Below, piece by piece: positions 6,664-54,900 of a DNA stretch of 64,000 nucleotides. Below the pieces are notes generated by a model. It searched no databases. It was not told the DNA's origin and saw nothing but the letters and a program-made list of their open reading frames with translations. Made by a program: the position numbers and the translations under genes. Every line of letters starts with the position of its first letter. Within the stretch, counting starts at the first letter, position 1. This DNA comes from Membranipora membranacea (Eukaryota > Bryozoa > Gymnolaemata > Cheilostomatida > Membraniporidae), in the NCBI GenBank assembly GCA_914767715.1, contig OU612074.1, positions 261,501-325,500 of the forward strand. Direction: 5' to 3'.

Positions 6664-9600
6664 CTATGATCTACTGGAGTCTCTTGTGGCCCTGTGTCCA
6701 CTCCTCTTAATCTTGCCATAGGCTTTTAATGATCCCATACTGGCCCTAGACAGCTCCGGCCTCAGGCTAACCCCGGAGCAATTTGGGCTTGAAACTGGAT
6801 GACCCTTTTTCATTTTCACTGCAGAGTTTATTTTCCCCAAATTGTTGCCAATCAAACCATCCGGGACACCATAGGCTCTCAGATAATTCAAGTCATTGGA
6901 ATGTTTGTCCGAGGCATACTGCTGTATAGCAACACTCGGCATCGTGTTATTGTTATAAGGCAGCTGTGTGCTGGGTTGTTGATAGTCGAAGCGTGCAGAC
7001 TGCATGTTGCCATACTGATAGTGAGACCCTCCATATGGATATAGCTGCTGCGTGCTGAATGCGTAGTCAATTTGGGGAAGCCGGTATTTCAACTTTTGCT
7101 GTGTGCTTGTAATATCTTGCTTCGATGACCCACTAATTGCCAAAGATTGTGCATTGGGTTGAAGTGTTGTTCCAGGAACTGGCTGTGGTGTGGTTCTGTT
7201 TTCAGTTGATGATGTTTTAGCATTGGCTTGTTTCAATGACATGACTTTTGAGATTCTTCCCTTAGAGCCTTGGTGAGGATACGTAGCAGGAGATGTCACT
7301 CCACCTTTTGAAGTTGCGGCCCCACTTTTTCCACTAACCGATTCACCATATAACACATTAGTGTGTACTTGGTCTGTATAAAGAGTTTTGCAACTTATCC
7401 CTCGCATTATTGGATGGGATGAAAAGTCTGTCGTCAAAGATTGCCGGTTGTACTTATGGTGAATCAATCCAAACCAGCTACCTTCATGCCGTATTCCTGC
7501 TTTCTTTTGATGCCATGTGTAAACTGTGATTATCAATATAATAGATGTAATAGCGAAAAATGTTGTTAAAGCCAGAGCTATCACCTTTTTGTCTTGATTT
7601 TCTGGCCCAATTGTAGTTGTACTGTGCTTTCTGGTAGTTGTAGTTGAGGTAGTTGGAGTTCTTAGTTTTGTTGTGGGTAAAGTTGTGGTTGATGTGGTTG
7701 TGGATGTTGTTGTTGTGGGGGTTGTCGTTGTTGTGGGTGTGGTCGTTGTTGTGGGTGTTGTTGTTGTTGTGGGTGTTGTCGTTGTTGTGGGTGTTGTCGT
7801 TGTTGTGGGTGTTGTCGTTGTTGTGGGTGTTGTAGTTGTCGGATTTGGTTCTAAAAACATTTAATAAATTATCAAATGTGATAAGTCATAACAAGTGTAA
7901 CCAAATATTTCACTTCAACAGTGTCAGAGAACATCTCTGGCTCTGTAAAGCATATAAGTCAGCAAGAATTCGGGAATATTAGAAAGTGTCTGGTTCAATA
8001 CATTGGAAACATAAATTTACAATAGACATTTATTACAATTCAACATAGCCTCTGAAGCCTGAAATACTCTTATGCACACACACCAGAAAACAGCACAGTT
8101 GAAATGTGATGAATGCAATTTATTGTAAACCCACCTTGCTCACATCCAAACCTATATGAATTTACAATCGAACAATATTTCACATGCCATTTGTAGCCGG
8201 TGCTTTTATGCATGATCACACAATCTCCGGACGTAATCGACTCAAAATAACTCCAGCTGTATGATGCCCCTTGCGATAAAGAAAATATCAATCGTACTTT
8301 TCAATACACTTTAATATTCAAACTGTCAGACTGCGTCACGAGAATAAGTATTCAAGTTAAAGACTACCCAAAGACCAAAGCATGCTATAGTCAGGCAGTT
8401 ACTTATGATACAGTTTTGCCAGATTTGCATGGTAAAGATGTTAAATGCTCTACTTGACATGAATAATTGATGGTGGATCCATAAGGTAAGGTAACTCCCA
8501 TTCTCCGCATTATGATGTCACAAATGCCTGGAAGTTCTCGTTATTTGTATAACGCTTCCCAGATGCTGTGACATCATGCACAAACACAAGCAGAGACTGG
8601 GAGTTACCTTCCCTTATGGAAGGCACTTTTCGCCACCATCAATCATTCATGCCAAGTAGAGCATTGAATTTTTTTACCATGCAAATCGACAAAACTTCAT
8701 AATAAGTAACTGCCTGACTATAACATGCTTTGGTCTTTGGGTAGTCTTTAAGAAATAAAATTAGTTTAAGATGAGGCTGGCAATGGTGTTGACAGTCATT
8801 TGTCTGCCTTTGCAGAGGTGATTTTTAGAGTTATTCTTGTATGCTCAAGTTAGTATCTCCCTTAACAGGATATGTCTGGCTGGTCTTAACTCACACATGT
8901 TTCTCCCAACTGACCTGAATGCCATTGAAAGTGTCCCTCACTTTCCTTGTCATCGAGACCTATCCAGAAGCCATTATAGTGTGCAGAATGGATCCTATTA
9001 GATATAAAAGTCTGTGCAGCTGGGCTGTCTACCTGTAAATTGGTGTACCATAACAATGTTTATGTCAAATATAATATATTTGTATCCATTTCATACACAA
9101 AGATAGCGCTAACAATAGCAATTTTTTTTAATCAATAAAATAATGGCATACCACACTGCTCACAGATCAATTATGAGTCTATCTGTACCGTTTAGATAGT
9201 GCCACAAAGCAAATGGTAGTTTGGAAGCATAATCTTTTAGTTTAGTCTTTTAGTATGGTCAAGACCACAAACATTACGGTATCTTATTTTATTATTCATC
9301 ATCATATGAATCAATAAAACCTAATTTAAGATCCCAATCTACAGATTATGTCCAGCTGCGCATGATCGTATTATTTAATTATATTTTTTCCAATATATAA
9401 TTATTGAGTTACATAACTCACAAAATTTTACTGAATGTGAAATAATACCAGTCTAGAAGTTAAGAAGTTTGCTCTAACAACATGATCATCTTATATAGTG
9501 ATATATACAAAACTTACAGCGATGAGATATGCACTTTTTCGGGTACAGACATTCCGGGCTTTGTACCAGTTTAATTCCTCACTAAGCTGAAACCAGTAGC

Positions 9601-14365: not shown

Positions 14366-17300
14366 CTAAATCTTGCTTTGGGCTTGAAGTGATCTCGTAC
14401 TGGCCCTAGACATCTTCAACCTCAGACTTAGCCTGGAGCGCTTTGAGCTTGCAACTGGAGGATCCTTTTTCATTTTCACTGCAGAACTTAGTTTCCCTAT
14501 ATTGCTGCCAATTAAACCATCAGGAACACCATAGGCTCTCAGATAATTCAAGTCATTGGAATGTTTGTCCGAGGCATACTGCTGTATAGCAACACTCGGC
14601 ATCGTGTTATTGTTATAAGGCAGCTGTGTGCTGGGTTGCTGATAGTTGAAGCGTGCAGGCTGCATGTGGCCATATTGATAGTAGGAGTGTCCAAATGGAT
14701 CAGGCTGCTGAGTGCTGTACCCGTAGTCATTTTGGGGAAATCTATGTTGCAAAGATTGATGTGTGTTTACAATATCGGGCTTTGATGACCCGCTAATTGC
14801 CATTAACTGGGCATTGGGTTGAAGCGTTGACCCGGGAACTGGCTGTGGTGCAATTTTGTTTTCATTGGACGTAGCTGATTGTTTCAATGACACACCTCGA
14901 GATTTTCTTCCTTTGGAGCCTTGGTGAGGATATGTAGCAGGTGAAGTCGCTCCACTTTTTGAAGTTACTGCAGATGCTAACTGGTTTCCTGTTTTTGTTA
15001 CTCCCCCACTTTTTTGAACACCGGACTCTCCATAAAGCGCAGTAGGTTGTACTTTATCGGTATAAAAAGTCTTGTAACTTATCTCTTGCATTATTGGATG
15101 TGTTGAAAAATCGGTTGTCAAAGCTTGCTGGTTGAACTTATGATGAATCAATCCAAACCAGCTACCTTCTTTCCGGATCCTAGCTTTCTTCTGAAGGAAT
15201 GTGTAAACCATCGATATCATTATTATTGTCATAATCGCGAAAAATGTTGTTAAGGCCAGAGCAATCACCTGTTTGTCCTGATTTTCTGGCCCAATTGGAG
15301 TTGTACTCTGGTGAGGCGACTTTGGTTTTTTGGTTTTTGGCTTTCTAGTTCTTGGCTTTCTGGATGGTTTTGGTGGTCTCGTAATTATTGAAGCAGCTGG
15401 TATTGTTTGTTTGGTAGTGGGTAAAGTTGTGGTTGGTGTGGTTGTAGTGGGTGTTGTCGTTGTTGTGGGTGTTGTTGTTGTTGTTGTGGGTGTTGTAGTT
15501 GTCTGGTTCGGATCTAAAATAATTTCATATCATTGCATGTGAAAAGTCATAATAAATGTAACCAATTATTTTATGCCAAATTGAAAAGGATATTTAAGAC
15601 TTTGTATAGTATTACGAATTGTTTCTTTTGTGGTTACTTTAATTTGTCGATCAAGATACAATCAAATGCATAAATTAGATCTGACAGTACATAAGACTGC
15701 AAGTCGACCTAGCAAGACTCTCAGAATAACAGCAACAATTAGAATCAACACATGGCAACAGGTGATAGTCAAGTGTGATGACTATTCGAAGAGGTCTTTA
15801 AAGCCTTAAATAATCATACAACTTATCATTTAGACAATTTTGAGTAAACACTACAGTCAATAATGGGAATGATGCTATTAATTTTATTGCACACCTTGCT
15901 GACATCCGAACCTATAGTGAAAAAAGAAATTGTTACAATCTTTCACTAGCCACTTGTAGTCCTCTTGCTTACGCATGATCACACAATCAGCACCACCCGT
16001 GTTTCCTTTATTCTTATAAAAATGACTCCAGCTGAAATGTGTACCTTTGGATAAAGAACGTGAACAGATTTTCAAACTTGCATTTCTGTTTCTTGTATGT
16101 TTTAATTTTCAAACTGTCACAGACTGCATTGAGCTCCGAAGTATTCAAGAAGAAAAAGGAATATGAGAAGGGTTATATCCTTTTATTATAAGGCTGGCCA
16201 TGATGTTTTCCCTTTGCAGAGTTGATGACTTATTTTATTCTTGCTTTGCAAGTGTCTTTTATTTTGTTATTATAGAATTTATTTATTATTTAGTATTTAT
16301 GCTTAACTAAGTGTTTCTAGTTTACAGGACATTAGTAGCTGGTTCTCCACCTACTCCTATAACTATCTACTGACCTGAGTGCCATTGAAATGTTCTCTCA
16401 ATTTTTCTGTCATTGAGACCGATCCAGAAGCCGTTAAAGTGTGCAGAGTGGATCCTATTCTTTATATAATCCTGTACCTGTAGGCTGTCTACCTGTAAAA
16501 TTGGTGTAGCAAAACAATTTTAAAATTGAATTTGCATTTAATATGGAAAAGAAAACATAAGCCTTAATAATATCAAAGCTCCTAATTTAACTTTCAGACT
16601 TGAAACCGATGGGAAAATAGTCATTACGCAATAGAAGTTGAGCAACTGGAGGTAACATCATAGAACAAATAGTTTGAGAGTTCAAAACGAGACCACCCTT
16701 TTTCTGCCAGGAAATACCACTGTATTTATCACTAGATATGTTTATCCACAACCGCTCTGGTGCCAATTAAATAGTGGAACAAACTCAAAGAACATTAATT
16801 GTTCTTGGAGTTTGCTTTTATCACTGACCATTATATGCTGGTTGTGTTCGCCTGCGAATAATCAGCTTTCAAATTCAATTTTGTTTGCGCAATATATAAT
16901 TCCGGAATTAAATATATCACCAAATAACAGAGGTTGTATATGATGACAGTATAGAAGTTGAGAATTATTGCTCAAACAGCATCATGATCACTCTTACAAA
17001 ACAATATGGAAAAAGGCAACTCACAGTAATGAGGTCTGCATCTTTTCCTTGACAGACTTTCAGAGCATGTTCCCAGTCAAGCTCAGCATTGAGATAAAAC
17101 CAGTAGCATCTGTTCAGGCTTGCCACATAGCTAAAATCACTCCTTGGACATCGACGAGCTACAAAAGATAATATTAGTATAATGGGGTTTGTCTTAAGTT
17201 TCTCAATGTTCTGATGAGTTCACTTGATAATTCTGAGTTTGATGAGGTTGACGTCTATCTCCGGTATCAGTTTTTAGCTTAGAGACTTTAAGTTGTTAAG

Positions 17301-20300
17301 TAACACCAGGTTGGGTATTGTAAGCTCATCCTGAGTCCTGAGTCCGATCCCCAGCCTCCAAAGCGGTTTAATGGTATAATTAGCATCGAAGTTCCAAATG
17401 AGCTGAATCTGACATGTGGAATACTCAACTATAGCATTTTTTTTGGCCATTCTATTGAGCAGGAACTACGTGGCAGCTAGGGGAGGCAGAGCGCCCCTGC
17501 CTCACCTAGAACTACGGGCCTGATTCCAACCAAGGCATTTTACATTGATAATGACCGAGTCACATCTATATGATTGCTGAAAGTTATTCTGAGCTTTATT
17601 TATTCCAGTAACCAACTCCTCTACCTAGAATATTAGCACAGGAGGCGGGCTCAAACTTTGAAAATTTTGGGTTGCAAACATTGAGCTTTGGAAACTTGCG
17701 CGTTCTGGGTTGTCGCTGGGATAGCCAGAGAACCTTGGCTAGTCTTAGGGAATGTCTCTGACTGGAAAACCCATCACAAGGTTGGAATTCCACTGCTATA
17801 CTCCAGCTCATACAGACATTACAAACTACCTCACTCTAAACTGACCTTAATAAGATTTCTAACTTGACCTCCTTCAGAACTCTTATAAATCTCACATTCA
17901 TGATATCCATTAGATTATTACTAATCAGCTCACTCTCACCAGACCGAATCCGCTACATTTCGCCAATGTACATTTTGCCAATGCTATGTTTTGCCAATCA
18001 CAAATCGCCAATCACATTTCGCCAAAGACATTTCGCCAATCTTATTTTGCCAATCACATTTCGCCAAAGATGTTTTGCCAATCTTATTTTGCCAATCACA
18101 TTTTGCCAAATACATTTTGCCAATCTCATTTTGCCAGTCACATTTTGCCAAAGACATTTTGCCAAATTCATTTTGCCAGTCACATTTTGCCAATCTCATT
18201 GTGCCAATCATATTTTGCCAAAGATATTTTGCCAATCATAAATTGCCAATGACATTTCGTCATCGCCAATTGCCAATTGAGGCGTACAAATATTCGTTCC
18301 AAAAAGGCTTCATGATGATGGTAAGGAATGCGTATCGGGTCAACTGTCGGGATGGGACGAATCCAATTGATTGTTCCCTTCTCATGGTTCTGGTTCTACT
18401 ATCCTCATCCCTTTTTGCTGTCACCATTACCATTACCGATATCAGCTCCTATATTTTATCCAAAAAATTCAGATTTCAGACTAGATCGTTGACCGCAAAT
18501 CTGGTTTTGTATTTGCTATCATCAAAAATGTGTAATGTCAGATGGTAAGCCCATTGAATTCCATATCTGGAATAGCATCATTAGCTTTCTTTTGCCAAAA
18601 AAAGGGCAAGCAAAAATAGCCAGTCCCTAGTAGCATTTTAGAAAAGCCCAAATCATTGACGTTAAAGGCATTTTATCACCATACTGACTCTCGTGATCTG
18701 ACTGGGCATGTAGATCACTGATAAACTAGGCTATCATTACCACAAAGCAGGTGTCGTAAGGCTAAGTATGCATCATGCGTGACTTGAATTTGCGCATGTG
18801 CAAGAACAATGAGTTTAGTTTGGGTTCTGATTGCAACTTTGGAAAGGGGAAATGGGATATCTCCTGCATAAACTGTCAATCAAAATCAACTAATAATGGC
18901 AAGAGAGGATAACTATTAATAACAATTCGCACGCTTTGGGGAATATGTCACCAGAGCAGGTAGCCAATCAGATGGCTTCGGAATTCCGAGACTCAATTTT
19001 GCAGAGATCAGCTCATGCCCAGAGCTGAGCATGCGCAGAATGTTTTATCACTGTTTGCAGTTTTGTAGACAAGTGAATTTCCCAGGCTATATTTTTCATG
19101 CCAGTAGGGACAGCCAATCAGATTAATGTCAGAGCAGTCCCTGTGTTGAGTGTTTCAACTGGATGATGTCATGATACTACTTCCATTTCATGAGAAGAAT
19201 TTAATTCAGTGGGTAAGCCATATAGTTTAGTAATGGCATCATATATATTCTGGAAATTACTCTTTATGTTTATTGTGCTGTCTGTTCATACATCAATTAG
19301 GAACCTATTGAAATCATTTCAATAATATGTTGAATGCACACATTTTTGTTTTAATACTTTATAGGAAGAATTTTCATTCTCAAAGAATGTTTTACAATAT
19401 AAGCCTTGAAAAGAAAAAAAATTGAATAGTAGATTGACAGAAAAAATATTATCATGTTATCTGTGAAAAATAATGTTTGGAAGAATGAATTTTGAATAAA
19501 CTGACGGCCGTGGTGGCAACCAAGGTTGAAGGTAAGCTGTTTTAACAGGACGCTATAATATTGTTTAAAAGATTATTTGTTGACATAACATTGACATAAC
19601 GTGTGAAGTCAATGGTTGCAGGCCAGAGGTCTAGCCTACAGAGGAAAGGAAAATCTATCATTTTTTTCCTGCAACAATTTATTGTATTTAAAATAAATGC
19701 ACTAAAATAGTGAAATAAAATAAAGCAGCGGCATGGTAGGATAAGTCCAGGAATAGTGAGGCGACCATGTCAGGACAATGAAGCCTACTTTCCACAAGGC
19801 TAGCCCAGACACGCAGCCTACTTGGCAAGATTCGACCCTTACCCCACAAACTCTCACGCAAGGCAAAAGGAGCCGCCCCCTCCTCCCCCAGATGGTATAA
19901 ATTCAACAGGTTTGCACCAAATGGCTGTTACGGCCGGGGTTTTGATTTCTAACTCGCAATTATTATTAAAAAGTAACAATTTACAATTTTCAATGGGCAC
20001 AATTTGATACACAGAAAAGAAAGAGGTCACATAGCTATGTGGGCGGATTTTTGAAGTGAATAGGTGTCATTTAGATGACAATAGGTGTCAATTTCCGAAA
20101 AACGTATTTGATTTCAAAACTATGCTCTCATCAAGGTGAATGCCGAGAAATGATGTGCTATTTTTTTGTCTTTAAAACCTGATTACCAAGTTTTATATGG
20201 TACTGTTCAGGATCTAAAATTTGTTTGTTTTTGTTTTTGTATAGTTTAAAATCAATTCATTACTCAAGCACCATCGTTCAATTTTATGAGCTTTTTTTTA

Positions 20301-23300
20301 ATTTTGTGATCATTGGAAGATATATTTGTGTCGTCGGCAAAGAGAATATATTTAAACATTGGCGCGGGTATAACCAAATCATTAATTAATATTAAATATA
20401 AAATTGGACCTAATACGGATCCCTGATCCGGACTCCTATATCGACCTATTTTATTGTATACTGAAATGATCGTTGATCTTGACGAATTGCTTTCCGTTTT
20501 CTAAATAAGATTTCAGCAAATTACATACATCATTTATAAAATTATAAAAAGGCAATCTTTTAATTAAAATATCATGGTTGATGGTGTCAAAGCCTTGCTG
20601 AAATCTAAAAAATATTCCTTGCGTAGTTTTACTGTTATTAAAACTGTCACACAGGTGCTCCATTACAATTATTATCTTTAATCTGACTATTGATTTTCAC
20701 AATGAGTGTTAAACCTTTAAAAGTCTCGTCATATAAAAAGTGACAACTAAAAAAGATCGTGTTTTAAAAATTTGTTAAAAGAATCTTAAAAAGAATTTAA
20801 AATTCCTGAAGAAGTTTGAATGTGAGTTCTTCATTGGCACTGAGTTTCATTTGCATTCATATGTACTGAGTGCAAAACAATTCTAATGAGATGACTTTCG
20901 TTGCCAGTAAAATTATATATATTGGTTCTACACTCGACCTTGCCTAGTTGTGTTGAGAAGATAACAACATTTTTTGTCAGTTTTCAACAGGGGAAAACCC
21001 ATCTACTCTCAACCCTTGATTGTCTTATTACCAGATCCCAAACAAGTTATCATATAGTACAAAGATACAGCCTTAAGGCAGGTTCTGCTAACTGGTGGCT
21101 AGGCGTAAAGACACTAGATCCAAACAAAAGGACAAAGACACCATCCCACTTTATGTTTTAGACGGATTGCTGCGTTCACCCCAGCAGTTTGTCGACAAAA
21201 TTAACTACTACTACACTACCATCACTGGAAAACCAGGTCCATCTCAAAATAACTTTACTCAACCACTCAGTACTGACATGACTAAGATCTCAATTGGCAA
21301 AAGAAAGGAAATACTCAAAACCAGCAACACATTGAAAGCTGTACGTAGCAATTACTACCCTGCGTGGAGGCAAAGACCTATGCGTTCCAGTAGCGCAGAT
21401 AATAAATCTTGCAGTGTAAACCTGTCGAAATCCACCATTGTACAAGACCAACCGCAGAAAAAACACCTATGGCCAAAATTTCATCACCAAGGAAAAGGTA
21501 GAATGTTTAGAATGTGAACAAAGAATATCAACTAAAAAAATTTCCTTTTTGAGATTTATACGTATATTATGAATTTGTAGAGATTATTATTATCATAAAA
21601 TTATTGGTAAATTAATATTGGTGATTATATCAGTACCACAATGCATAGATAGCCAGCACCTTCATGTTGCTGATGTTTTCCAGGTGCAACATTCGGCAAC
21701 CATTTTGCCTTAACCTATGCCTGCAAATGTTTTAAGCTCGAACTCTTTGGATGGACAATCTCAGCAAGAATTGCATGAACTAACCGGCAACAGTCAAGGA
21801 TGGATGTGAATAGGAAAGATATTTCTTTTCATATATTATAGACCTCTGATGTTCAACCATTCACATTATATTATATTATATTATATTATATTATATTATA
21901 TTATATTATATTATATTATATCATATCAGTGTGTGCTTATAACATATTATTATAATTATTCATGTAGGTGCTTAATTAATGTATGACTGAACAGCAGAAT
22001 AAACGTTCATAGTCTCTCCCCCCCCCCCCCGCCCTGAATAGATATGGCAGGGGTGCCCAACCTTTTCTCTCACATGAGCCATTTAAAAAATCAATCAAAC
22101 CAAATGAGCTGACCTCGTTGCGTCACGTGTAGACAACATGGAAACAGTCAGTGATATATATGTATCATATTCATTCATGTATAAGCGCTGGCAAAAATAC
22201 CAAAGCAAAGCATAGTCATTGTGTGAGATTATGCGCGTAGCGCAAACATTCTTTGAGGCAATTTCTGGTCATATGAGGCGCCCTGGAGTTTTGTAAGCAT
22301 TTTAAGCATTTTGCAAATTTTTATAAGCATTTTGGAAAATTTAGGTTGGCAAGTCTGCAAGAAGACAATTCTACACACATATGTACAATGTAGGCACCCA
22401 GTACAATGAACTTGTATACACTATACATACATTTAATGTACATTGTACATGCATGAATTGAATGCATGAAATTCACTCCGAAAAGCGCGTGAAATTTGCA
22501 AATATTAAAATGAGCCACCCAAAAAGCCGAAATGAGCCGAGATGGCTCATGAGCCATAGGTTGGGCACCCCTGAGATATGGTGTCTAATACCAAACTATA
22601 TTGCTTACTATCTGTCATTAAACTTTAGATCACAGCAAATACAAATCCAGTTTTGCGGTCGACAATCTAATCTGAAATCGGAATTTTTTGGAAAAAATAC
22701 GGGTGCTGATATCGGTAATTGTAACGGTCACAGCAAAAAGGGATCAGGATAGTAAAACCAGAACCATGAAGAGGGAACAGTCAATAAGTGCTGATTGCGC
22801 GTGCTCAAAAACAATTGGAGTCGTCCCATACCGACAGTTGACCCGGTACGCATTCCTTACCATCATCATGAAGCATTTATGGAATGAATGTTTCTACGCC
22901 TTAATTGGCAATTGGGTTGACGAAATGTTATTGGCAATTTATGATCGGCAAAATGAGATTGGCAAAATATCTTTGGCAAAATGAGATTGGCAAAATGAGA
23001 TTGGCAAAACATCTTTGGCGAAATGTGATTGGCAAAATAAAATTGGCAAAACATCTTTGGCGAAATGTGATTGGCAAAATAAAATTGGCAAAACATCTTT
23101 GGCGAAATGTGATTGGCAAAATAAAATTGGCAAAACATCTTTGGCGAAATGTCTTTGGCAAAATAAAATTGGCAAAACATCTTTGGCGAAATGTGATTGG
23201 CAAAATAAGATTGGCGAAATGTCTTTGGCAATGTATGATTGGCGAAATGTAATTGGCAAAACATAGCATTGGCAAAATGTACATTGGCGAAATGTCTGCC

Positions 23301-29979: not shown

Positions 29980-32900
29980 TTATAGCTCATCATGTCCGCC
30001 GGTTCTATCTGTTTCTACTGAAAAAATAAGTAAATATTATTAATATCTGTCAGATTTGTTCATAGTGTTATATGAACTTGAGCGAGTCAATGATAGATGG
30101 TAAGAATGACTAAGAAAGCCAAGCAGGTGAGTAAATGATGGCTCTTCATTGCTAAAACAGTCACATAACCACCCCTTTTGACCACGATTCAGATTGAATC
30201 TTATCACATCTGGTACTGGAATAATTCAAAATAAGCCCATACTATTTAACTGTTGAGTTGAGTGAAGCCAGAGCCGGGCAATCGACCAGACCGAACCTGA
30301 AAGCTAACTAGAGAAAACCTTGTCAGGTCTGTGTGTATAATCATACCTAAATACTAACCAACAGATGAACTATTAGAATTCTCTCTACACCCATTAGTAC
30401 CAGAGTTATAGTTACCTGGACCAGAAGATGGTCTGTCAGCATTAACCATCCTCCTTCTAGCTGTCATGATATGGTTCTTATATGAATGCAGTCTCTCTCT
30501 GTGGGGCGTGTCTATCACATGAGGGTTGTTTAGATTTAACTCCATAAATTTAGCTTCCTCATTAGTAAACTGTGGCCACTCCTCGGCTATGTCCAGTGCT
30601 ACTGGCTTGTTCGGATTACTGCATAGAGAAATAAGAATAGATTAATCATTAATTGTTAGGATTACTGATGGCGTATCAAGGCCGGAATATTTTGCTTGTC
30701 TTCTCAGTGAAAGGGGCAGCTGCATACAAATGTCCGGGTAGAATGTTTTGCAATGTTACCAAGCGCTTCCACTATATTCTCAGCCCTTGCAAATGGGCTA
30801 GATGGATTGGGATAGAAAGGATTGTTACACAGATGCCCATTCCGGAAACTCTGAGGCAAATCAGAATGGAGAGAGCATTCATTGGCACAAATCTCAACTC
30901 CGATTTTTAAAGTTCAATAGTGAACATCTATTGTTTGAGCTGCAATGCAGATGCAGATTAGTCTTGTCACGCGACTTCAGGTTCCACAAACCCAAAAATT
31001 AGCCTGGAGACAAAACTACATGCAGAGACCTAAATCCGTGCAATGTGAAACTAAAGGTTAGTTTACCCAGTCTTAGCAAAGTTAGTCCAGGCTGTCATCA
31101 TTCTCCGACTCAGCGCCTCGTATTCTATCTCTTTATCTTTATTCTTATCAGAATCCCAGTTACCAACAAACATATCAGCATAGGCAGCATCAGAGTTCAT
31201 TATTCCTGTACACAACAAGATAATAAGATAAACGACAATGAAACTTTGAACGGTAATAATGAGATGGCATCAGAGTTGTCCTCTCTTTGTGTACAACAAG
31301 ATAACTCCTAAAAATCATCGGCTATTTTACCAAACACAATTATTGTCAAAGGATTACTGTTTTCCCACATGGCGTACAATATTATGATGAACGGCAGGAA
31401 ACAGCTAATAAGGGATAAATATCAAGATTGACAATAAAACTCACTCTCCCACAACTCATCCTTCCTCGCTCTCCCACTTTTGAAGAGAGTCGCACCGAAA
31501 ACAAAAGCCAGCTCATCTCCGTGGTCTGCTTGAGTTTTGAGCCAATCAGGCATAGTCCACAGCGGGTTCGGTGGGTCTGGTTGGTAGTTCTCAGTGAATA
31601 AGTAAGCGTAGGTGGATTTATCACTGGAGGAATGCTGCTCGAGCTGGTTCAGGGTGTCAAAGTTAAACAGAGTCTCTCCTGTAACAGGATCAGATGTTAT
31701 ATACATAACAAGTCACATGGCAAGAAAGAACATTGGTGTCATAGTTCCATCGAAAGAGTACAGGTGGTAGGTGTGAGTAAAAACCTTAGTTTTTTATATA
31801 TTTTAGATATAATCCGTGTAACAAAACAAAAACTGTTAAAACTTGACCTGGCACAATGAGGTCATTGATGAGGCGAGATCACATACAACAATAACGAGTT
31901 CCAAACACATGATCAGTCACAGGAGATATTGGAGGTAGGTTCTATGTTCTATGGTTCTATGCGAGGTGAAGTTTAGAAATGTAAAGAGGGAAACTTTACT
32001 GATCACAATTAACATATTTGGCTTGTTTTATGATTGACGACTTTCTCGTATATATATTAGTGATGCTACCTTGTAGTTCACAGAGTCTCCTAGCTCTCTC
32101 CTTATCACAGGTAGGCTCCTCAAGCTTATACAGATTCTTCATAAAAGTGGCGCACAACTCCGGGGATAGGGGGGTGACGATCGAACATTTAAAGTTCAGT
32201 AGGGTATCAATAATTTCCATATCCACTCCATTCTCAGCTGACTTGTTCAGCATACCGGCTATCATTGGTACCTCCATACTATACAAAAGTCCTCCCTCCT
32301 GGCCGTTCACCCCGGCCATCAGGTCAAACCTACAAAGATGTCAAACCCACAACGTAACGGATGTGTGTCAAATAGTGGGAAAGCCCAAACCTACAAAGAG
32401 GTAAAGAGTGATGTGCTTGATAGCAAACATGTGGTGGGGAAGCCAGTACAACCATACTACAGTAAGAAAGAGCTTATTAATCATGCTTAGGTCCGGCCAG
32501 TATCACAGGGTCTCGCATCGTCCCGGAGACGTTGTGCACTTGTACCCTATTCAGCTTATTCAATTCCACCACTGCTGCCCTCTGTGACTTAACGTATATA
32601 AGGGAATATCACACTGACCTGTGAGCGAGATCATAAGACTCTGTCTCTACACTATCAGGAAAGAAATCCCCATCAGCTATCGGCACCATATACAGTCCTT
32701 GCATGTTTAGTGTGTTAGTCAAATTCATCATCTGATCGAGTCCGACGTCTCTGAAGCAGTCATAGACAGAAGCGACAGTGTCTGGGCAGTTCACCACTTC
32801 ACGCCACGCTTTGATTATCTTTGTCTGTGTGTTCTTAGAGTGATCGAACATCATATACAGAGATCCTGACTGTGAATCAGATCATACAAAATGTGTAAAC

Positions 32901-35900
32901 AAATATAATATATTTATTTACATTATGTTATCTGTGGAGTACATTTTGAAATGGTAATGTGTGTACCTCCATTATTCACACCGCCAATAACATACGGGCT
33001 TTCTACTATGAAAACCGCTCTCATGAAAGAACAGAAAAAAACGGACAGTAAGACATCCAGCCTGCTGCAGATGTTACCACATACAGTAATATCCTTGCCT
33101 GAGTAATGGCTCGCTTAAACAGCCCATTGTTGTGTTTTCCCATAGTCTGAGCTGAGACGCTGCCGGCTCCTGCTGACTCTCCAAATATGGTAACGCTGTC
33201 TGGATCTCCTCCAAAGGCAGCGATATTCTTCTGTACCCAGATAAATGCCTCTCGCTGATCCCACATACCCATGTTACCTCCACCTGTGTACATACAATAT
33301 CAGACATATCGAAGATTTGATCACGCATTAATCACAAAGCTTTGTAGAAGGACTGAACCCTACCTGCAAGATAAAATATTTATCGAATCCACTTCATCAT
33401 TCTTAAAAAAATCCTCAAATACACGGACCTTTTATCTCATTTTTAAATGACTATTGCGGATGAACTAGCAAAAGCTGATGATACATTTGTGTATATCAAT
33501 CAATCCATTTTGGGACATTTAAATTCCAGCTAAATTTTATGTTTTGAAGGATAATTTGCAGTAGGCAACACAAGCTGACCCATCAATTTCTGTAAGCAGG
33601 AAGTATATTTCGGCAGATACGCTTCTGTCTCAGGAACTGGGCTGAGGGATTCTTACCAAATGTTCTGCCAAAAAACTAGAACCATTAACCTGGTCAGCAA
33701 TACTTATTTCTATTCAATCTCAGTAACTAAAATTTCGTTGATCAAAGAGGTTCAACCTGATGACTCACCGGACTCATCCCAGAGAAGTCCTAGTATACCC
33801 AGTCTGTAGTTTATAGAGACTACTATAACATCACCATGTGTAGCTAGTCCTGCTCCAATATAAATACTACGAGATCCTATAGAGTAACCTCCTCCGTGTA
33901 TAAACACCATCACTGATTTCTTATCTCCGAGCTCTGTACCAGAAGGTAAAGTGATGTCCAGAAATAGACAGTCCTCCTGTCCGGAGACTCCCTCTGTGTG
34001 AAAAGTGAGGAAATACGAGATTAAAATTTGGTAAAGCAGAAAAATTGGGTAAAATACTCAACACATTATCAAGACAGGCTAGCCGATTGTTAGGTAGCCT
34101 TAATAAACTGACTTATTAGATCCCTGTCAATGCCTAAATCAAATTTGAACCATTTGCTGCATTTAAACCTGCTGCAAGCCCCTGGCAGATTAACAGTATA
34201 ATGGAGGGGGAGCAATTCAAAATGCAGACAAATTTGTCAACCAGCTATTACTACAAAAATGTCATCTTGTCAAACCTCATCAACAAACTTGCAAACTCGA
34301 TTGTGTAAAACAACGTAAGGGTGCTAAAGATAAAGCTCAAATCACACATTCAAAGACAAGGCCAGCAGTGCGCACTTCATAGATTAGCAACCCATCTTAT
34401 CTATTTTAGTGCTACCATACTCAGACTCACATATGAGTGCTCCGGCTCATGTTAGATGTTTACTATCTAATGACTAGTCAGCTGACAGCTTAGTTGTTTA
34501 GTCACCAAGCAGACTGTGATTTATAAAATATTGCATAAATTGATCCTCAAACTCCAAACTTGCTCAGTCAATGTCTAATGTAAACTAAAACTAATAAACC
34601 CATACCATCTGGTTTGATATGTTTCTCAGGACATACCTAAGCTTTGTAAGTTACTCACGTACCTTCTGGTTTGATTGGGTTACTCTGTGGACAGTTCTGT
34701 CCGACTTCTGTAGCGTCGATAGTTCCAGTCCATACAGGAGCAGCCACAGGCTTCCTGAACCTCAACTCGTCCACAGGGGCCTGAGCATATCTTATACCTG
34801 TAACAATAACAACGAGACTATACCACTGGGGTCTGAGCATATCTTATACCTGTAACAATAACAACGAGACTATATCACTCGGGCCTGAGCATATCTTATA
34901 CCTGTAACAATAACAATGAGACTATACCACTGGGGCCTGAGCATATATTATACCTGTAACAATAACAACGAGACTATATCACTGGGGCCTGAGCATATCT
35001 TATACCTGTAACAATAACAACGAGACTATACCACTGGGGCCTGAGCATATCTTATACCTGTAACAATAACAACGAGACTATACCACTGGGGCCTGAGCAT
35101 ATCTTATACCTGTAACAATAACAATGAGACTATACCACTGGGTCCTGAGTATATCTTATACCTGTAACAATAACAACGAGACTATATCACTGGGGCCTGA
35201 GCATATCTTATACCTGTAACAATAACAACGAGACTATACCACTGGGGCCTGAGCATATCTTATACCTGTAACAATAACAACTAGACTATACCACTGGGGC
35301 CTGAGCATATCTTATACCTGTAACAATAACAACGAGACTATATCACTGGGGCCTGAGCATATCTTATACCTGTAACAATAACAACTAGACTATACCACTG
35401 GGGCCTGAGCATATCTTATACCTGTAACAATAACAACGAGACTATATCACTGGGTCCTGAGCATATCTTATACCTGTAACAATAACAACGAGACTATACC
35501 ACTGGGGCCTGAGCATATCTTATACCTGTAACAATAACAACGAGACTATATCACTGGGGCCTGAGCATATCTTATACCTGTAACAATAACAATGAGACTA
35601 TACCAATGGGGCCTGAGCATATCTTATACCTGTAATAATAACAACGAGACTATACCACTCGGTCCTGAGCATATCTTATACCTGTAACAATAACAATGAG
35701 ACTATACCACTGGGGCCTGAGCATATCTTATACCTGTAACAATAACAACGAGACTATATCACTGGGGCCTGAGCATATCTTATACCTGTAACAATAACAA
35801 TGAGACTATACCACTGGGGCCTGAGCATATCTTATACCTGTAATAATAACAACGAGACTATACCACTCGGTCCTGAGCATATCTTATACCTGTAACAATA

Positions 35901-38900
35901 ACAACGAGACTATACCACTGGGTCCTGAGCATATCTTATACCTGTAACAGTAACAACGAGACTATACCACTGGGTCCTGAGCATATCTTATACCTGTAAC
36001 AGTAACAACGAGACTATACCACTGGGGCCTGAGCATATCTTATACCTGTAACAGTAACAACGAGACTATACCACTGGGTCCTGAGCATATCTTATACCTG
36101 TAACAGTAACAACGAGACTATACCACTGGGTCCTGAGCATATCTTATACCTGTAACAGTAACAACGAGACTATACCACTGGGTCCTGAGTATATCTTATA
36201 CCTGTAACAATAACAACGAGACTATACCACTGGGTCCTGAGCATATCTTATACCTGTAACAGTAACAACGAGACTATACCACTGGGTCCTGAGTATATCT
36301 TATACCTGTAACAATAACAACGAGACTATACCACTGGGTCCTGAGCATATCTTATACCTGTAACAATAACAACTAGACTATACCACTGGGGCCTGAGCAT
36401 ATCTTATACCTGTAACAATAACAACGAGACTATATCACTGGGTCCTGAGCATATCTTATACCTGTAACAGTAACAACGAGACTATACCACTGGGTCCTGA
36501 GCATATCTTATACCTGTAACAATAACAACGAGACTATACCACTGGGGCCTGAGCATATCTTATACCTGTAACAATAACAACGAGACTATATCACTGGGGC
36601 CTGAGCATATCTTATACCTGTAACAATAACAATGAGACTATACCACTGGGGCCTGAGCATATCTTATACCTGTAACAATAACAACGAGACTATATCACTG
36701 GGGCCTGAGCATATCTTATACCTGTAACAATAACAATGAGACTATACCACTGGGGCCTGAGCATATCTTATACCTGTAACAATAACAACGAGACTATATC
36801 ACTGGGGCCTGAGCATATCTTATACCTGTAACAATAACAACGAGACTATATCACTGGGGCCTGAGCATATCTTATACCTGTAACAATAACAACGAGACTA
36901 TATCACTGGGGCCTGAGCATATCTTATACCTGTAACAATAACAATGAGACTATACCACTGGGGCCTGAGCATATCTTATACCTGTAACAATAACAACGAG
37001 ACTATATCACTGGGGCCTGAGCATATCTTATACCTGTAACAATAACAACGAGACTATATCACTGGGGCCTGAGCATATCTTATACCTGTAACAATAACAA
37101 CTAGACCATATCACTGGGGCCTGAGCATATCATATACCTGTAACAATAACAACGAGACTATACCACTGGGTCCTGAGCATATCTTATACCTGTAACAATA
37201 ACAACGAGACTATACCACTGGGTCCTGAGCATATCTTATACCTGTAACAATAACAACGAGACTATACCACTGGGGCCTGAGCATATCTTATACCTGTAAC
37301 AATAACAATGAGACTATACCACTGGGGCCTGAGCATATCTTATACCTGTAACAATAACAACTAGACTATATCACTGGGGCCTGAGCATATCATATACCTG
37401 TAACAATAACAACGAGACTATACCACTGGGTCCTGAGCATATCTTATACCTGTAACAATAACAATGAGACTATACCACTGGGGCCTGAGCATATCTTATA
37501 CCTGTAACAATAACAATGAGACTATACCACTGGGGCCTGAGCATATCTTATACCTGTAACAATAACAACTAGACTATATCACTGGGGCCTGAGCATATCA
37601 TATACCTGTAACAATAACAACGAGACTATACCACTGGGTCCTGAGCATATCTTATACCTGTAACAATAACAACGAGACTATATCACTGGGTCCTGAGCAT
37701 ATCTTATACCTGTAACAATAACAACGAGACTATATCACTGGGGCCTGAGCATATCTTATACCTGTAACAAAGGTAACAGAGATGGGATGATGTAACCATA
37801 AAAGAGATAATCCTGAATATTGCTACGGTTGCTGCTGTCATGCCAGTTAGTCTTTGATCATAATCGGCTGAGATTTAGTTACGGAGACCCCCCCCCCCCC
37901 ACTACTCGTACCTCTTACTGTGAACAACACCCCCTCTCTGCAAAAAGACACTGATATCATATCAATAAGCCTTTAAACTTTAAAGCTTTGCATGCAATTT
38001 TTTTTTCAACATGGACAGATATAGAATAGAATTGTCAAGGACTTAGTCATCATAACTCAGTCATAATAACTGTCTATCATGGCAGTTATCAGTAGGCTGT
38101 CATTTCAAAGTTAATGCAAAGTATGCAAAGTATGCAAATCAGATTTCATCACTGTGACCAATAAGAGGGATGGATTTCATTGCCTTGACAAATGTTTGCA
38201 CAGCATTGCAAACTATCTATTGCCTTATATGAAGAGTGGTTTGCAAAAAAAACTGCAGCACTTAAATTTTGTCAAGTCATGCTGTGGGGTTGTGGGCCTA
38301 ATGAACTTAGAAACTTCTATATTTAAGGTGGAAATAAGTGTACATAACCGGGATGTGGTTAGTTGTTGAGGTAAAGATTACAAATTGAGGACAACAAAAT
38401 ACATAAGTTGATGATGTGGAAGCCTTCAATGTTGAGATAATTAACTCCTTTTTCATGATGTTCTCTGTATAGCCCATGTACCATATACAGGCCCGGAGTT
38501 CTAGGGGAGGCAGGGACGCTCTACCTCCCTAGACTGCTCAATGGAGTGGCCTAAAAATGCTATAATTGAGTATTCCAGGTCAGAATCGGCTCATTTGGGA
38601 CTTCATTAATTATCACTATCACTATCATCAAAATACAGTGGAGGCTGGGGATTACCCTAGACTCCACAGGAGGAGCTTACAAAACCCAACCTGGTGTTAC
38701 TTCACACCCTCAAGGATTTTTGCTTCCCCTACCATTTTTCCTTAACTAGGGTCCTGATAGAAAATGATTGGTGGAAATAATGTGTGCCCCTATACTAGCT
38801 GTGAAGTGGGTATAATAAAATTAGCCATAGCCACAAGGCTTTGTCTTCATTTTCATGCAAATCTATGTGAGACATTACATCCCTGTATCTACCCCAAATG

Positions 38901-39161
38901 ACAAGCAGAAATTTATGACCCTTTGAAAACACAGCCAACTCCAATCATTGCTCGCTAAACTTGGCAGCATCGTCCAGCCTTATACAATCTAGTGAAATGC
39001 ATTTTCAACTCACCCAAGTATACATCAACTTCTTTGTCAGCGAATGCATTCCTGATACCTCTGAGAGATCCACCATGACTGAGTGTAACCTCCGGTCTCT
39101 CGTCAGCAGAGAGAACCAGCTGCAGCATCAAACAGCTCACTATAGCTACTCTCCAGCACAT
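29980..39161 (-). CDS. Carboxylesterase A, ER-retained (HDEL)
   Basis: Ten exons: 39161-39014, 34797-34663, 33993-33769, 33283-33099, 32869-32619, 32329-32070, 31678-31445, 31205-31067, 30618-30416 and 30017-29980, giving 605 residues. The signal peptide begins [19 protein letters not shown]. Domain landmarks are [12 protein letters not shown], the Cys-loop (QNCPQ and EDCLFLD), the oxyanion-hole HGGGY, the nucleophile elbow GESAG in exon 4, the acid Glu of QEGG in exon 6, and the catalytic His of ADHGDE in exon 7. The family hydrolyses carboxylic esters of lipids or xenobiotics. The last exon adds GGHDEL and stop, predicting ER-lumen retention as in vertebrate liver carboxylesterases. Exon 4 ends in a GC donor. 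Exon 2 is preceded by a 57-period splice-acceptor minisatellite. All exon lengths except the last equal those of esterase C. Confidence 0.88.
34797..37761 (-). repeat. 52-bp minisatellite carrying a 3' splice site, 57 periods
   Basis: The distance between the first and last acceptor is 2,964 bases, exactly 57 x 52. Read on the minus strand, each period has 'gttgttattgttacag' followed by the first 22 bases of esterase A exon 2 (GTATAAGATATGCTCAGG and CCCC), then 'agtggtatagtctc'. Variable positions are CG/TG/CT in 'aacaaCGag' (plus strand), C/T in 'ataCcac', G/T in 'gggGcc', and aataac/agtaac. The intron sequence beyond the last unit matches the intron of B ('aaggtaacagagatgggatg'), so the array is a local expansion at the intron-exon border. 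Confidence 0.95.
38490..38760 (-). repeat. Dispersed repeat X, copy 2, inserted in esterase A intron 1
   Basis: This is the reverse complement of 17,281-17,530. Esterase B has the uninterrupted site near 47,960 ('gcccatgtaccat' joined to 'gaaaaatgattggt'), so the insertion followed the A/B duplication. Confidence 0.75.
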
Positions 39162-45000: not shown

Positions 45001-48000
45001 GACCCTCCTTCATTCACATCGTCGATAACATAGGGCTTTCCTCTATGATATAAGCACGTGCGAATGAACAGAAATGGAAATGAAAAGTACTGCATCCTAT
45101 TGTCAAGGTAAGTCCCCACATCATGTCCTTGCCTGAGTAATGGCTCGCTTAAACAGCCCATTGTTGTGTTTTCCCATAGTCTGAGCTGAGACGCTGCCGG
45201 CTCCTGCTGACTCTCCAAATATGGTCACACTGTCTGGGTCTCCTCCAAAGGCAGCAATATTCTTCTGTACCCAGATAAAGGCCTCTCTCTGATCCCACAT
45301 GCCCATATTACCTCCACCTGTGTACATACAATATCAGACATATCGAAAATTTGATCATGCATTAATCACAAAGCTTTGTAGAAGGACTGAACCCTACCTG
45401 CAAGATGAAATATTTATCGAATCCGCTTCATCATTCTTGGAATAATCATCAAATACACGGCTGACTTGTTATCTTGTTTTCGGATGACTGTTACGGATGT
45501 ACTAATAAAAGCTGATGATACATTTGTGTATATCAATCAATCCATGTAGCAATATTTAATTTAATTTCTTGTAAGATATTTAAAGTAGGCAACACAAGCT
45601 GACCCATCAATTTTTGGTAACAGGATGTATATTTTGGCAAAATCGACTTCTTCCTCAGGTACTGGGCTGATGGATGTCAGAATACTAGAGCTGCAAACTT
45701 AGTACTAATTTATAGTATATATCAGTAACTAAAATTTCGTTGATCAAAGAGGCTTGATCTGATGACTCACCGAACTCATCCCAGAGAAGTCCTAGTATAC
45801 CCAGTCTGTAGTTTATAGAGACTACTATAACATCACCATGTGTAGCTAGTCCTGCTCCTATATAAATACTACGTGATCCTATAGAGTAACCTCCTCCGTG
45901 TATAAACACCATCACTGATTTCTTATCTCCCACCTTAGTACCAGATGGTAGAGTGATGTCGAGAAACAGGCAGTCTTCCTGCCCTGAGACTCCCTCTGTG
46001 CGACAAGTGATTAAATACGAGCTTAATTTTGGTAACAGCAGAAAAATGGGGTAAATATACTCAACCATTGTCAAGACAGGCTAGCCAATGTCAGCTCGCC
46101 TTAATAAATGACTTATTAGATTCCTGCCAATACTTTACTCTAAGACCTAGGTTATGTATTTATATTCATATTTATATATGAAACAAACATGCCATATAAA
46201 ATATATTACATACACTTTTTGCTACTCCGTTGGCTATTATATAATGATCATCAATAAAAATACATACTAGTGTCAGCAGGTAGCAAAAAGAAATCTATGT
46301 AACCTATGGCCATTTTGATAGTGGCCTTATGGGTAGTGGCCTTATGACCAGTTACCTTTCTGGTAGTGTCATTTTGGGTGACCACCTTGTTCGCAGGGAA
46401 AAAGGAAAGGCGAGCAAAGCAGCTAGTGTGATTGTATACGCAGTTTTTTTTTATGTTCAGATTATGTGGAGGCAACAATATATATCAACTCATATGCCGT
46501 AAATAAGTGTGAATGTTTGACTGATAAATCAGATTATTACTCCTCACAACTAAAGAAGACAATTGCAATAATGACGCGCAAATAACTTGCAGCCACTCCC
46601 TGACCCTTTCTCTATAAATATCTAGATCAACCATTTTGCCTGCATCTGAACTAGCATCTTACTATTAGAATTGGGAGGGCGGTGGGGGGACAATTTGAGC
46701 TGCAGACAAATCTTGAAATTTCGTCTTGTCAAACCTCATCAACAAACTTGCAAACTCGATTGTGTAAAACAACGTAAGGGTGCTAAAGATAAAGCTCAAA
46801 TCACACATTCAACGACAAGGCCTGTAGTGCGGACTTCATAGATTAGCAACCCATCTTATCTATTTTAGAGCTACCATACTCAGACTCACATATGAGTGCT
46901 CCGGCTCATGTTAGATGTGTACAATCTAATGACTAGTCAGCTGACAGCTTAGTCATTTAGTCACCAAGCAGACTGTGATTCATAAAATATTCCATAAATT
47001 GATCCTCAAACTCCAAACTTGCTCAGTCAATGTCTAATGTAAACTAAAACTAATAAACCCATACCATCTGGTTTGATATGTTTCTCAGGACATACCTAAG
47101 CTTTGTAAGTTACTCACGTACCTTCTGGTTTGATTGGGTTACTCTGTGGACAGTTCTGTCCGACTTCTGTAGCGTCGATAGTTCCAGTCCATACAGGAGC
47201 AGCCACAGGCTTCCTGAACCTCAACTCGTCCACAGGGGCCTGAGCATATCTTATACCTGTAACAAAGATAACAGAGATGGGATGATGTAACCGGGAGCAG
47301 TGTGGGGTCCAAAGAAGAGACAACCCTGAAAGTTACTACGGTTGCTGCTGATGCTTGCATCGCCAAGTCATTCTGTGATCATTACATTACTGTACTATTA
47401 CTGTAACAATAATAGCTAACCCCCCCCCCCCCCCTTACAGCATGGACAGATAGAATGGTCAATCAAGGACTTAGTCATCATTACTTATCATAACTGTCTA
47501 TCATGAGACGTCTAGCTGTCATTTCAAAGTTCAGGGAATGGGACATTTTATATTGACATGTATGCAAATCAGGTTTCGTCACTGTGACCAATGAGAGGGA
47601 GCGCTCATTGCCGTGACTAGACTAATGTTTACACAGCTTTGCAAACCATCCATTGCCTTATATGAAGAGTGTTTTACAAAAAACTGCAGAACTTAAATTT
47701 CGTCAAGTCACTACACAGCATGCTGTGGTTTGTCGGCCTAATGAACTTAACAACTTCTATATTTAAGGGGGAAATAAGTGTACATAACCGGGATGTGGTT
47801 AGTTGTTGAGGTAAAGATTACAAATTGAGGACAACAAAATACATCAGTTGATGATGTTGAAGCCTTCAATGCGATGAGACATAAACGCCTTGAGATAATA
47901 AACTCCTTGTTCATGGAGTTTTTTGTATAGCCCATGGAATTTTTTGTATAGCCCATGTACCATGAAAAATGATTGGTTGTCAAATATGTGTACCTACTTT

Positions 48001-51989: not shown

Positions 51990-54900
51990 CCCTAGTTTAA
52001 GTGCTGAAACTCTGCCCAGTTTGCTGGTATTAGTATTCCGTTCACTACCACTTCTGATGGTTGGGAGGTGGTGGTTGATGATAGCAACTGACACATCCCG
52101 GGCTCAAGCTTCTATGACCCAGATGTTTTATTTGCACCTAACTCTATGAACATCAGCATAAGTGCATCGGGCACCTTGTGACCCTTTATGGCCCAAATCT
52201 CCCAAATCTTTTCTTTCTGTACTGTTGATGGTGGTCCCCTTAATATTTGTAGTTGACTCAAATATGGCTCAAAGTTTGAGTGGTGTGGTCTGAATGGGAT
52301 TGAGTAGCCTCGTCACAAGGCCAAAACAATAAAAGTGGTTTATAGCAAAGGAGACAAGGTACGCACGAGAAAGTTGTAGAGCATGGCGATGAGTATCCCA
52401 CAACGCAATGTTCTGGGATTCCGAGCTAGGAATCCTAGAATATTGCATTGTGGGATACTCATTGCAGTGAGATCAGATCAACACATAATATTAAATTATC
52501 CGTGCAGGCATTTCCGGGCATAAGTTGTGTTATGGGTATCATGTAATCATGTCCTATAACAAAAATGGATCGCAGACAATATCTAAGCGGTGTCAATCAT
52601 ATACATCCCCACATATTAGATGTGGCCGCAGCAGTGCAGCAGCGCAGCAGCGCAGCAGCGCAGCAGCACAGCAGAGCCTGGTTATTCAATGTTCCTATAC
52701 ACAAACTCATTTGGCAATTTGGAGCACACAACAAATGGCTACAACATTTCAACCAGGATTTTATACAATTATTAAATAGAACAATATGGTTATAAACCAG
52801 CAAAAAATAACATTCTTGGGTAATTTGAGAGCAATTTTATCATCCCTGGATAAGTTAAACACCAGTTTTGGATAGCGACAGTGACACTCAACATTTCATT
52901 ATTAGCTTTTCAGCTTAGAACCATCATCTTAGTGACCTCTTCATAGATGTTTATCTGTTGACAGTTAATATTATCGGTCTACTGATATTATAAAACTATA
53001 CGATGAAGACCGACACCTTTGAGGAATTCACCAATTCAATAATATGTCTGCTTCAATTAGCTTCATATCACACTTAATAAGTTAATCGCCAGGTTACAGG
53101 AATAAAAACGCACATTCAGAGTAACATCCATATGCAATGACTGAGGGTATACTCTCCATTAATCTTTGTTACAGGTATAAGATATGCACAGGCCCCTGTG
53201 GATGAGTTGAGGTTTAGGAAGCCTGCGGCTGCTCCTGGATGGACTGGAACTATCGACGCTACAGAAGTCGGTCAGAACTGTCCGCAGACAAACCCTAACA
53301 AACCTGAAGGTTTGTGTGTTTCTTTCAAATCTTAGGGATGTCCTGAGTGCCCTAGACAAATCAAACTCACTTTTGTGATCAAAACGAACTATCTTCATGT
53401 TGTACGCTGTTTGTATGTTGTCACTATCAGTTTACAAATAATTGAAAGGTAGCCTACAGTTTACTCGAATTTGTCTTCCTTAATTGCCTTGGGCAAACAT
53501 CTGGCACATTTTTAGCGTACAGTTTCGCATGATAATGTGTAAGATTTATAATGACTGAATGGAGTCAGGTCAGAAGTTATCATCTTTGTTGGTAAAAGCA
53601 GACTCATTCTCAAGTTCTAAGTTCCACAATCACCAATCCTTCCATTGCCTCTCACTAAATACCAACATATTGTACAATTGTTGATTACTCTTGTAACACA
53701 GAGGGCGTATCTGGACAGGAGGACTGTCTATTTCTGGACATCACCGTACCATCTGGTACTAAACCAGCAGATAAGAAAGCGGTGATGGTGTTTATACACG
53801 GAGGAGGTTACTCTATAGGATCACGTAGTATTTATATAGGAGCAGGACTAGCTACACATGGTGATGTTATAGTAGTCTCTATAAACTACAGACTGGGTAT
53901 ACTAGGACTTCTCTGGGATGAGTTCGGTGAGTGATCAGATTGAGCTACTGAATCATCTTCAATTATTTGTGCCTTCACAAAACTTAACCTCAGAGTGGAT
54001 ATTTTGGATGTAGGGTTACTCGGTCTTATCTCAAAGACCCAATTCTTGAGATAAGGCTGCATGTTACTGATAATAACACAAATTTGATACTGACGAGAAA
54101 TAAGCCTCCATAAGCTGCTGGATGAAAGACACTGTTGATATTATCAAAATGTTGACTGAGTTTACTGCTCCTGTACTGTCATAGAACAAAAATCTATGAT
54201 TGTTATAATGTGACCGATTCTGAAGAGCTTAGAGTCGTGTCTAGCCTGGGCAGGCTGCAAACGGCCGGCCCAGGCTATGCAGCGTCCAGAGAGTTGGATA
54301 AATTACTGGTGCACAGTTGCTGCTCGTAGTGTTACAATGTTAGATTTGTTAATTTACCTGTACAGGTGGAGGCAATATGGCCTTATGGGATCAGAGAGAG
54401 GCTCTTATCTGGGTACAGAAGAATATCGCTGCCTTTGGAGGAGATCCGGACAGTGTTACCATATTTGGAGAGTCAGCAGGAGCCGGCAGCGTCTCAGCTC
54501 AGACTATGGGCAAACATAACGATGGGCTGTTTAAGCGAGCCATCACCGAAGTAAGATAATGAACATTATATCAGTACATCTGTGTGGTTGCAGGAATATT
54601 CTTTGTTTTTCAAAATTCCAGTTGCTTTATACAACATTCAGATGTTTTGTGGTTCTACATTTTATAAATTCACATTGCAGTCGGGGTCGCTGTACATACA
54701 TTTTGACCACTCGGAGAACTCAAAGAGGAAGATCGTCAAAGCTTGGCGTGAGTCTGTGAACTGCCCAGAAACCGTCGCCTCTGTCTATGACTGCTTCAAA
54801 GATGTCGGACTCGATAGAATGATGGACCTCACCTCTACACTCAACCTGCAGGGCCTATATATGCTGCCGATAGCTGACGGGGACTTCTTCTCAGACAGCG

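Follow-up and report, generated by a model that had tools for sequence, protein, structure and literature searches.

A mirage-like 52-bp minisatellite repeats the exon 2 acceptor of a bryozoan carboxylesterase gene

Splice-junction minisatellites and the esterase A array

Minisatellite-like tandem repeats that span exon-intron boundaries have been described in lancelets, where they were named "mirages" in the Adh3 gene (PMC3087553). Mirages are also present in troponin C and PGBD5 (PMC3902484) and in the globin genes BflGb6 and BflGb9 (PMC3087553), and they are described as not disturbing splicing (PMC3087553, PMC3902484). The reported unit lengths are 10 to 72 bp for Adh3 and 150 to 160 bp for globin (PMC3087553). 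BflGb6 carries three to six units in which the 3' end of the intron and the 5' part of exon 2 are duplicated, and the PGBD5 mirage is given as three units, 108 bp (both PMC3087553, PMC3902484). Two further systems are related. The minisatellite of human IFI6 (6-16) reportedly supplies several splice donors (cited in PMC4526556), and the Rogers model, as outlined in PMC4974935, derives new introns from tandem duplication of AGGT.

We analyzed a 64,000-nucleotide stretch of bryozoan DNA (here called the window) in which a gene, esterase A, occupies the minus strand between position 39,161 and roughly 30,000 and carries a tandem array between exons 1 and 2. The parts of the array are as follows (in motifs, a slash marks the splice joint).

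34771..37770, minus strand: 52-bp minisatellite identified by Tandem Repeats Finder; its full units run GT...AG on the minus strand
34798..37761, minus strand: 57 complete 52-bp units, each with 27 exon-2-like bases, an 18-base filler, and a TTACAG-type intron end
37762..37769, minus strand: outermost (intron-side) acceptor, TGTTACAG, preceded by unique intron sequence that resembles the intron end of paralog B
34798..34805, minus strand: exon-proximal acceptor, the sole open-frame acceptor among 58

Tandem Repeats Finder assigned the array a period of 52, 57.7 copies, 96% matches, 0% indels, and a score of 5447, which is far beyond chance for a tandem repeat. On the minus strand, the TTACAG/GTATA core is identical in all 58 copies. 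The first exon-type base lies at 37,761 for the first acceptor and at 34,797 for the last, a distance of 2,964 bases, or 57 x 52; since each of the 57 spacings is exactly 52 and the register is perfect, the originally predicted span without net indel was borne out. The 58 tandem copies that had been predicted hold for acceptors (58) but not for complete units, of which there are 57, because the 58th acceptor is exon 2's own. Similarly, the 22 bases of real exon claimed for every unit are exact in only 32 of the 57 units, and a better description is 27 bases with one fixed difference: the exon part matches exon 2 at 24 to 26 of 27 bases in every unit (one to three mismatches), and base 23 is A in 57/57 units and T in exon 2. 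Every unit starts with GT and ends with AG. The units fall into 17 distinct sequences that vary at 13 of 52 columns; pairwise differences average 2.16 bases and reach at most 7.

The array has several of the features by which mirages are recognized. The exon-intron boundary lies inside the unit (58/58 TTACAG/GTATA joints, each unit with 27 exon-like bases), the gene retains an intact 605-amino-acid frame with one authentic boundary (only acceptor 58 is open), and the 52-bp unit falls inside the reported range of mirage lengths. Like BflGb6, the array repeats a 3' intron end together with the 5' part of exon 2, and like lancelet mirages, its units carry AG/GT signals (PMC3087553, PMC3902484). 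It differs from them in occurring in a bryozoan rather than a cephalochordate, in having one unit length throughout, and in comprising 57 units, compared with the 3 to 6 given for BflGb6 and the 3 given for PGBD5. Moreover, splicing and instability of lancelet mirages were tested by their authors, whereas the esterase A array is known from the sequence of one haplotype. On these sequence features, we regard the array as a mirage in a new phylum, of a kind already known and with far more units than the 3 to 6 of lancelet globin. The original prediction had called such a minisatellite unusual, which needs correction, since boundary-spanning minisatellites are known as lancelet mirages and a donor-side example is described in human IFI6. 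We found no earlier bryozoan or other non-lancelet acceptor-side case in the literature searched, which included few subscription papers.

The resemblance to the other two systems is partial. In IFI6, too, a minisatellite repeats a splice site at the edge of an exon, but the repeat is on the donor side and its units are used as alternative donors (PMC4526556). In the Rogers model, too, AG/GT joints are copied in tandem, and the GT...AG stretches between them are potential introns (PMC4974935), but the copies in esterase A sit inside an existing intron beside its acceptor, and no new intron is seen; the position of intron 1 is common to esterase A and its paralogs B and C. The array extends mirages from lancelets to a bryozoan and suggests that splice junctions can seed repeats in distantly related animals and that coding exons tolerate such repeats beside them. 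It offers a natural test of spliceosomal choice among 58 nearly identical acceptors, for which paralog B, which has the same exon 2 without the array, is a built-in control. Intron gain by tandem duplication might also start from such an array.

Esterase A and its paralogs

The gene and the corresponding sites in its paralogs comprise the following features.

39014..39161, minus strand: exon 1 of esterase A, with start codon, signal-peptide-like start, and donor GTGAGT
34663..34797, minus strand: exon 2 of esterase A; it has 135 nt, is in phase 1 on either side, and shows 0/135 differences from exon 2 of B
30000..34662, minus strand: introns 2 to 9 and exons 3 to 10 of esterase A; exon 10 was placed by B transcript P0002
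47122..47295, minus strand: empty site in paralog B, comprising exon 2, its one acceptor, and the end of the intron before it
53150..53309, plus strand: the same junction in paralog C, with one acceptor and exon 2
34534..34806 in A and 46993-47265 in B: 273-base tract in exon 2 and intron 2 that is identical in A and B and stops at the exon side of the array

The esterase identity proposed at the outset was right (Pfam COesterase, E = 5e-120). The model of esterase A has 605 amino acids and ends in HDEL, the first base of exon 10 being at 30,017; esterase B has 606 amino acids. Because the proteins of A and B share 97% identity and the genes have diverged with a dN of 0.013 and a dS of 0.189 over 590 codons (dN/dS well below 1), esterase A looks like an intact, constrained, working gene. 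A, B, and C have a common exon-intron structure over nine exons, and A and B have a tenth exon (30017 and 42091, minus strand), which encodes the C-terminal HDEL. HDEL is an endoplasmic reticulum retention signal, and its presence in A and B suggests that the enzyme would be kept in that compartment. We also noted that exon 4 of A and B (33099 and 45133) ends at a GC donor, CAG/GCAAGG, where C has GT. The closest named proteins among the matches listed were those of Watersipora subatra and Bugula neritina, both cheilostome bryozoans, with 37 to 54% identity; the next named proteins among those matches were near 30%, with a lancelet match at 29%. A lancelet source for the window was rejected on these matches.

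Sequence at both paralogs agreed with the expectation of only one acceptor at this junction in B and C, and the array is, as had been claimed, restricted to one paralog, being in A and in neither B nor C. To either side of the array, the flanking sequence of A matches B, where the junction is array-free. Outside the 273-base identical tract, A and B are less alike, and the tract probably reflects recent gene conversion.

Transcript evidence came from two JGI proteins of the same or nearly identical species. P0002, which spans exons 4 to 10, agrees with B at 418/419 residues. P0123 joins B exon 1 (one residue, Leu) to exon 2 (GIRYAQ) and then to B exon 3, and thus the equivalent acceptor of B is used in a transcript. 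P0123 also has an odd joint when compared with 45996-45228, passing from inside exon 3 to exon 4 in another frame, which is either an odd isoform or an assembly error. In three protein searches, whose scope did not extend to the nine members of the P0002 cluster, none of the matches listed was an A transcript across exons 1 and 2, the interval that holds the array, so we infer the use of acceptor 58 in A.

Origin and growth of the array

The array would have begun when a stretch made up of the very end of intron 1 and the initial 27 bases of exon 2 was duplicated in tandem; its units point to later expansion to 57, partly in multiunit blocks. Identical units four apart occur in 14 of 53 pairs compared with 5.2 expected, a count reached by 2 of 5,000 shuffles (this lag was one of eight tested). 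Exact blocks of three units are also in excess (5 versus 1.26 expected; 19 of 2,000 shuffles), the excess of four-unit blocks is weak (1; 227 of 2,000 shuffles), and no exact five-unit block was found among the 57 units. Together, the lag-4 identity and the recurring three-unit blocks argue for block expansion and against a simple error of assembly. Because assembly of tandem repeats is difficult, a contig could in principle have inflated a few real units, but we consider this highly improbable, given that 17 unit types with excess identity at lag 4 form the pattern expected of real block expansion and that the register is perfect across 2,964 bases, although the count itself may be inflated. 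The observation is confirmed as sequence, with an assembled copy number that may be affected by assembly. In a mirage, units inside the cluster would be homogenized and those at its edges left out of this process; in esterase A, there is block structure at lag 4, and the three exon-side units 55 to 57 are unique types, but the intron-side unit is of the commonest type.

If mutation rates were alike, the array may predate the A/B gene conversion, since its units differ by 4% on average among themselves. The founder of the 18-base filler was sought in the intron ends, whose best alignments to it were reached by 51 (B), 720 (A's own flank), and 123 (C) of 3,000 shuffles; with these values, an intron end was not traceable as the founder with confidence. 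No second copy of the full 18-mer was found elsewhere in the window at up to three mismatches.

Predicted consequences for splicing

When exon 1 was spliced in silico to each acceptor, all 57 upstream choices produced a stop within about 10 codons, 54 of them at residue 59 and three at residue 51; acceptor 58 was the only one of 58 to give an open frame and the 605-residue enzyme. Since every upstream acceptor leads to an early stop, the array could lower output but could not make new proteins in that way. The acceptors themselves were scored with a small matrix built from the same three esterase genes, with real acceptors scored left-one-out. By this same-gene matrix, the 58 array acceptors scored 12.4 to 14.2 and real acceptors -2.3 to 17.3, which supports the original description of the array acceptors as working type; the exon-proximal acceptor ranked second of 24 real acceptors, and 0.8% of the 7,894 AGs in the window, array copies included, scored as high.

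Our preferred reading is that the array is a mostly passive minisatellite of the mirage type, with exon 1 probably spliced to the exon-proximal 58th acceptor and the remaining array removed as intron. Exon definition favors the acceptor adjoining an exon with a good donor and would lead to the choice of acceptor 58, which alone adjoins exon 2 and has a good donor 135 nt away. With any other acceptor of the array, a stop would follow within about ten codons, and the message would presumably be degraded; mis-spliced RNA of this sort would be noncoding, and the cost to output would be modest at most.

A more active role, with the effect on splice choice or expression suggested at the outset, is conceivable. 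The 57 upstream acceptors may act as poison sites, with a contest setting A output between the first AG, at the outermost copy with its ancestral-looking branch region, and exon definition, which acts at the innermost copy. Array length would then differ from colony to colony and serve as a rapidly evolving dial of expression, perhaps combined with repeated-step splicing through the GT...AG units; taken as a whole, we think this unlikely. The narrower proposal that upstream acceptors compete with the real one, so that copy number sets esterase A output through the share of premature stops, seems to us quite unlikely as well. It gains from the near-equal matrix scores of the 58 acceptors (12.4 to 14.2), from the stop that follows every one of the 57 upstream choices, and from the outermost acceptor, whose intron end looks ancestral and whose AG-free stretch is longer. 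That stretch is 49 nt, the longest of the array acceptors looked at, compared with 18 nt upstream of the exon-proximal acceptor, which is below all 23 other introns measured (20 to 104 nt), and this difference, which counts against the preferred reading, could favor the wrong end of the array. However, the A protein is under constraint like that of B, which makes a heavy cost of the array unlikely, and the splice-signal columns are conserved no more than expected. The longest invariant run within units covers 11 of 52 columns, and 43% of random placements were as long; selection on the splice signal inside the units is thus unsupported. A 261-nt stretch of the array folded worse than its shuffles (z = +2.17; 200/200 shuffles at least as stable), showing no notable RNA structure, and Rfam gave no match within the window.

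The units could also be removed stepwise as 52-nt mini-introns through their AG/GT joints, such that a misplaced first splice is corrected. GT at the start and AG at the end of 57/57 units would allow this, and, as follows from the sequence, each unit step would bring back the normal junction of exons 1 and 2. As donors, however, the joints are weak: the unit joint scores 3.32 and the exon 1-unit hybrid 2.75, compared with 4.60 to 12.13 for 24 real donors on which the donor matrix was trained, and 11 to 13% of the GTs in the window score as high as these joints. Recursive splice sites join an acceptor to a good 5' splice site, and here 3.32 lies below the lowest real donor (4.60). Recursive splicing is accordingly not favored, and we consider it very improbable. 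Finally, the array might disturb exon 2 so that it is often left out. Exon 2, with 135 nt and phase 1 on both sides, could be skipped with the frame kept and 45 residues lost, but the lost part holds the beginning of the carboxylesterase core, which is conserved and does not differ between A and B, and no such transcript was among the matches listed; we consider skipping very improbable.

By eye, other tandem arrays at eight places in the window, which has few gene models outside the esterases, showed none on a splice joint. A 14/42-bp repeat of the TTTTGCCAATC type forms two arrays about 5 kb apart in opposite orientation (17955-18259 and 22942-23293). The window further contains a retroelement reverse transcriptase fragment at 3600-4361 (RVT_1, E = 1.1e-31). 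Its minus strand encodes, at 6667-7860 and at 14369-15529, a pair of similar proteins that have Thr/Pro-rich repeats and no Pfam match.
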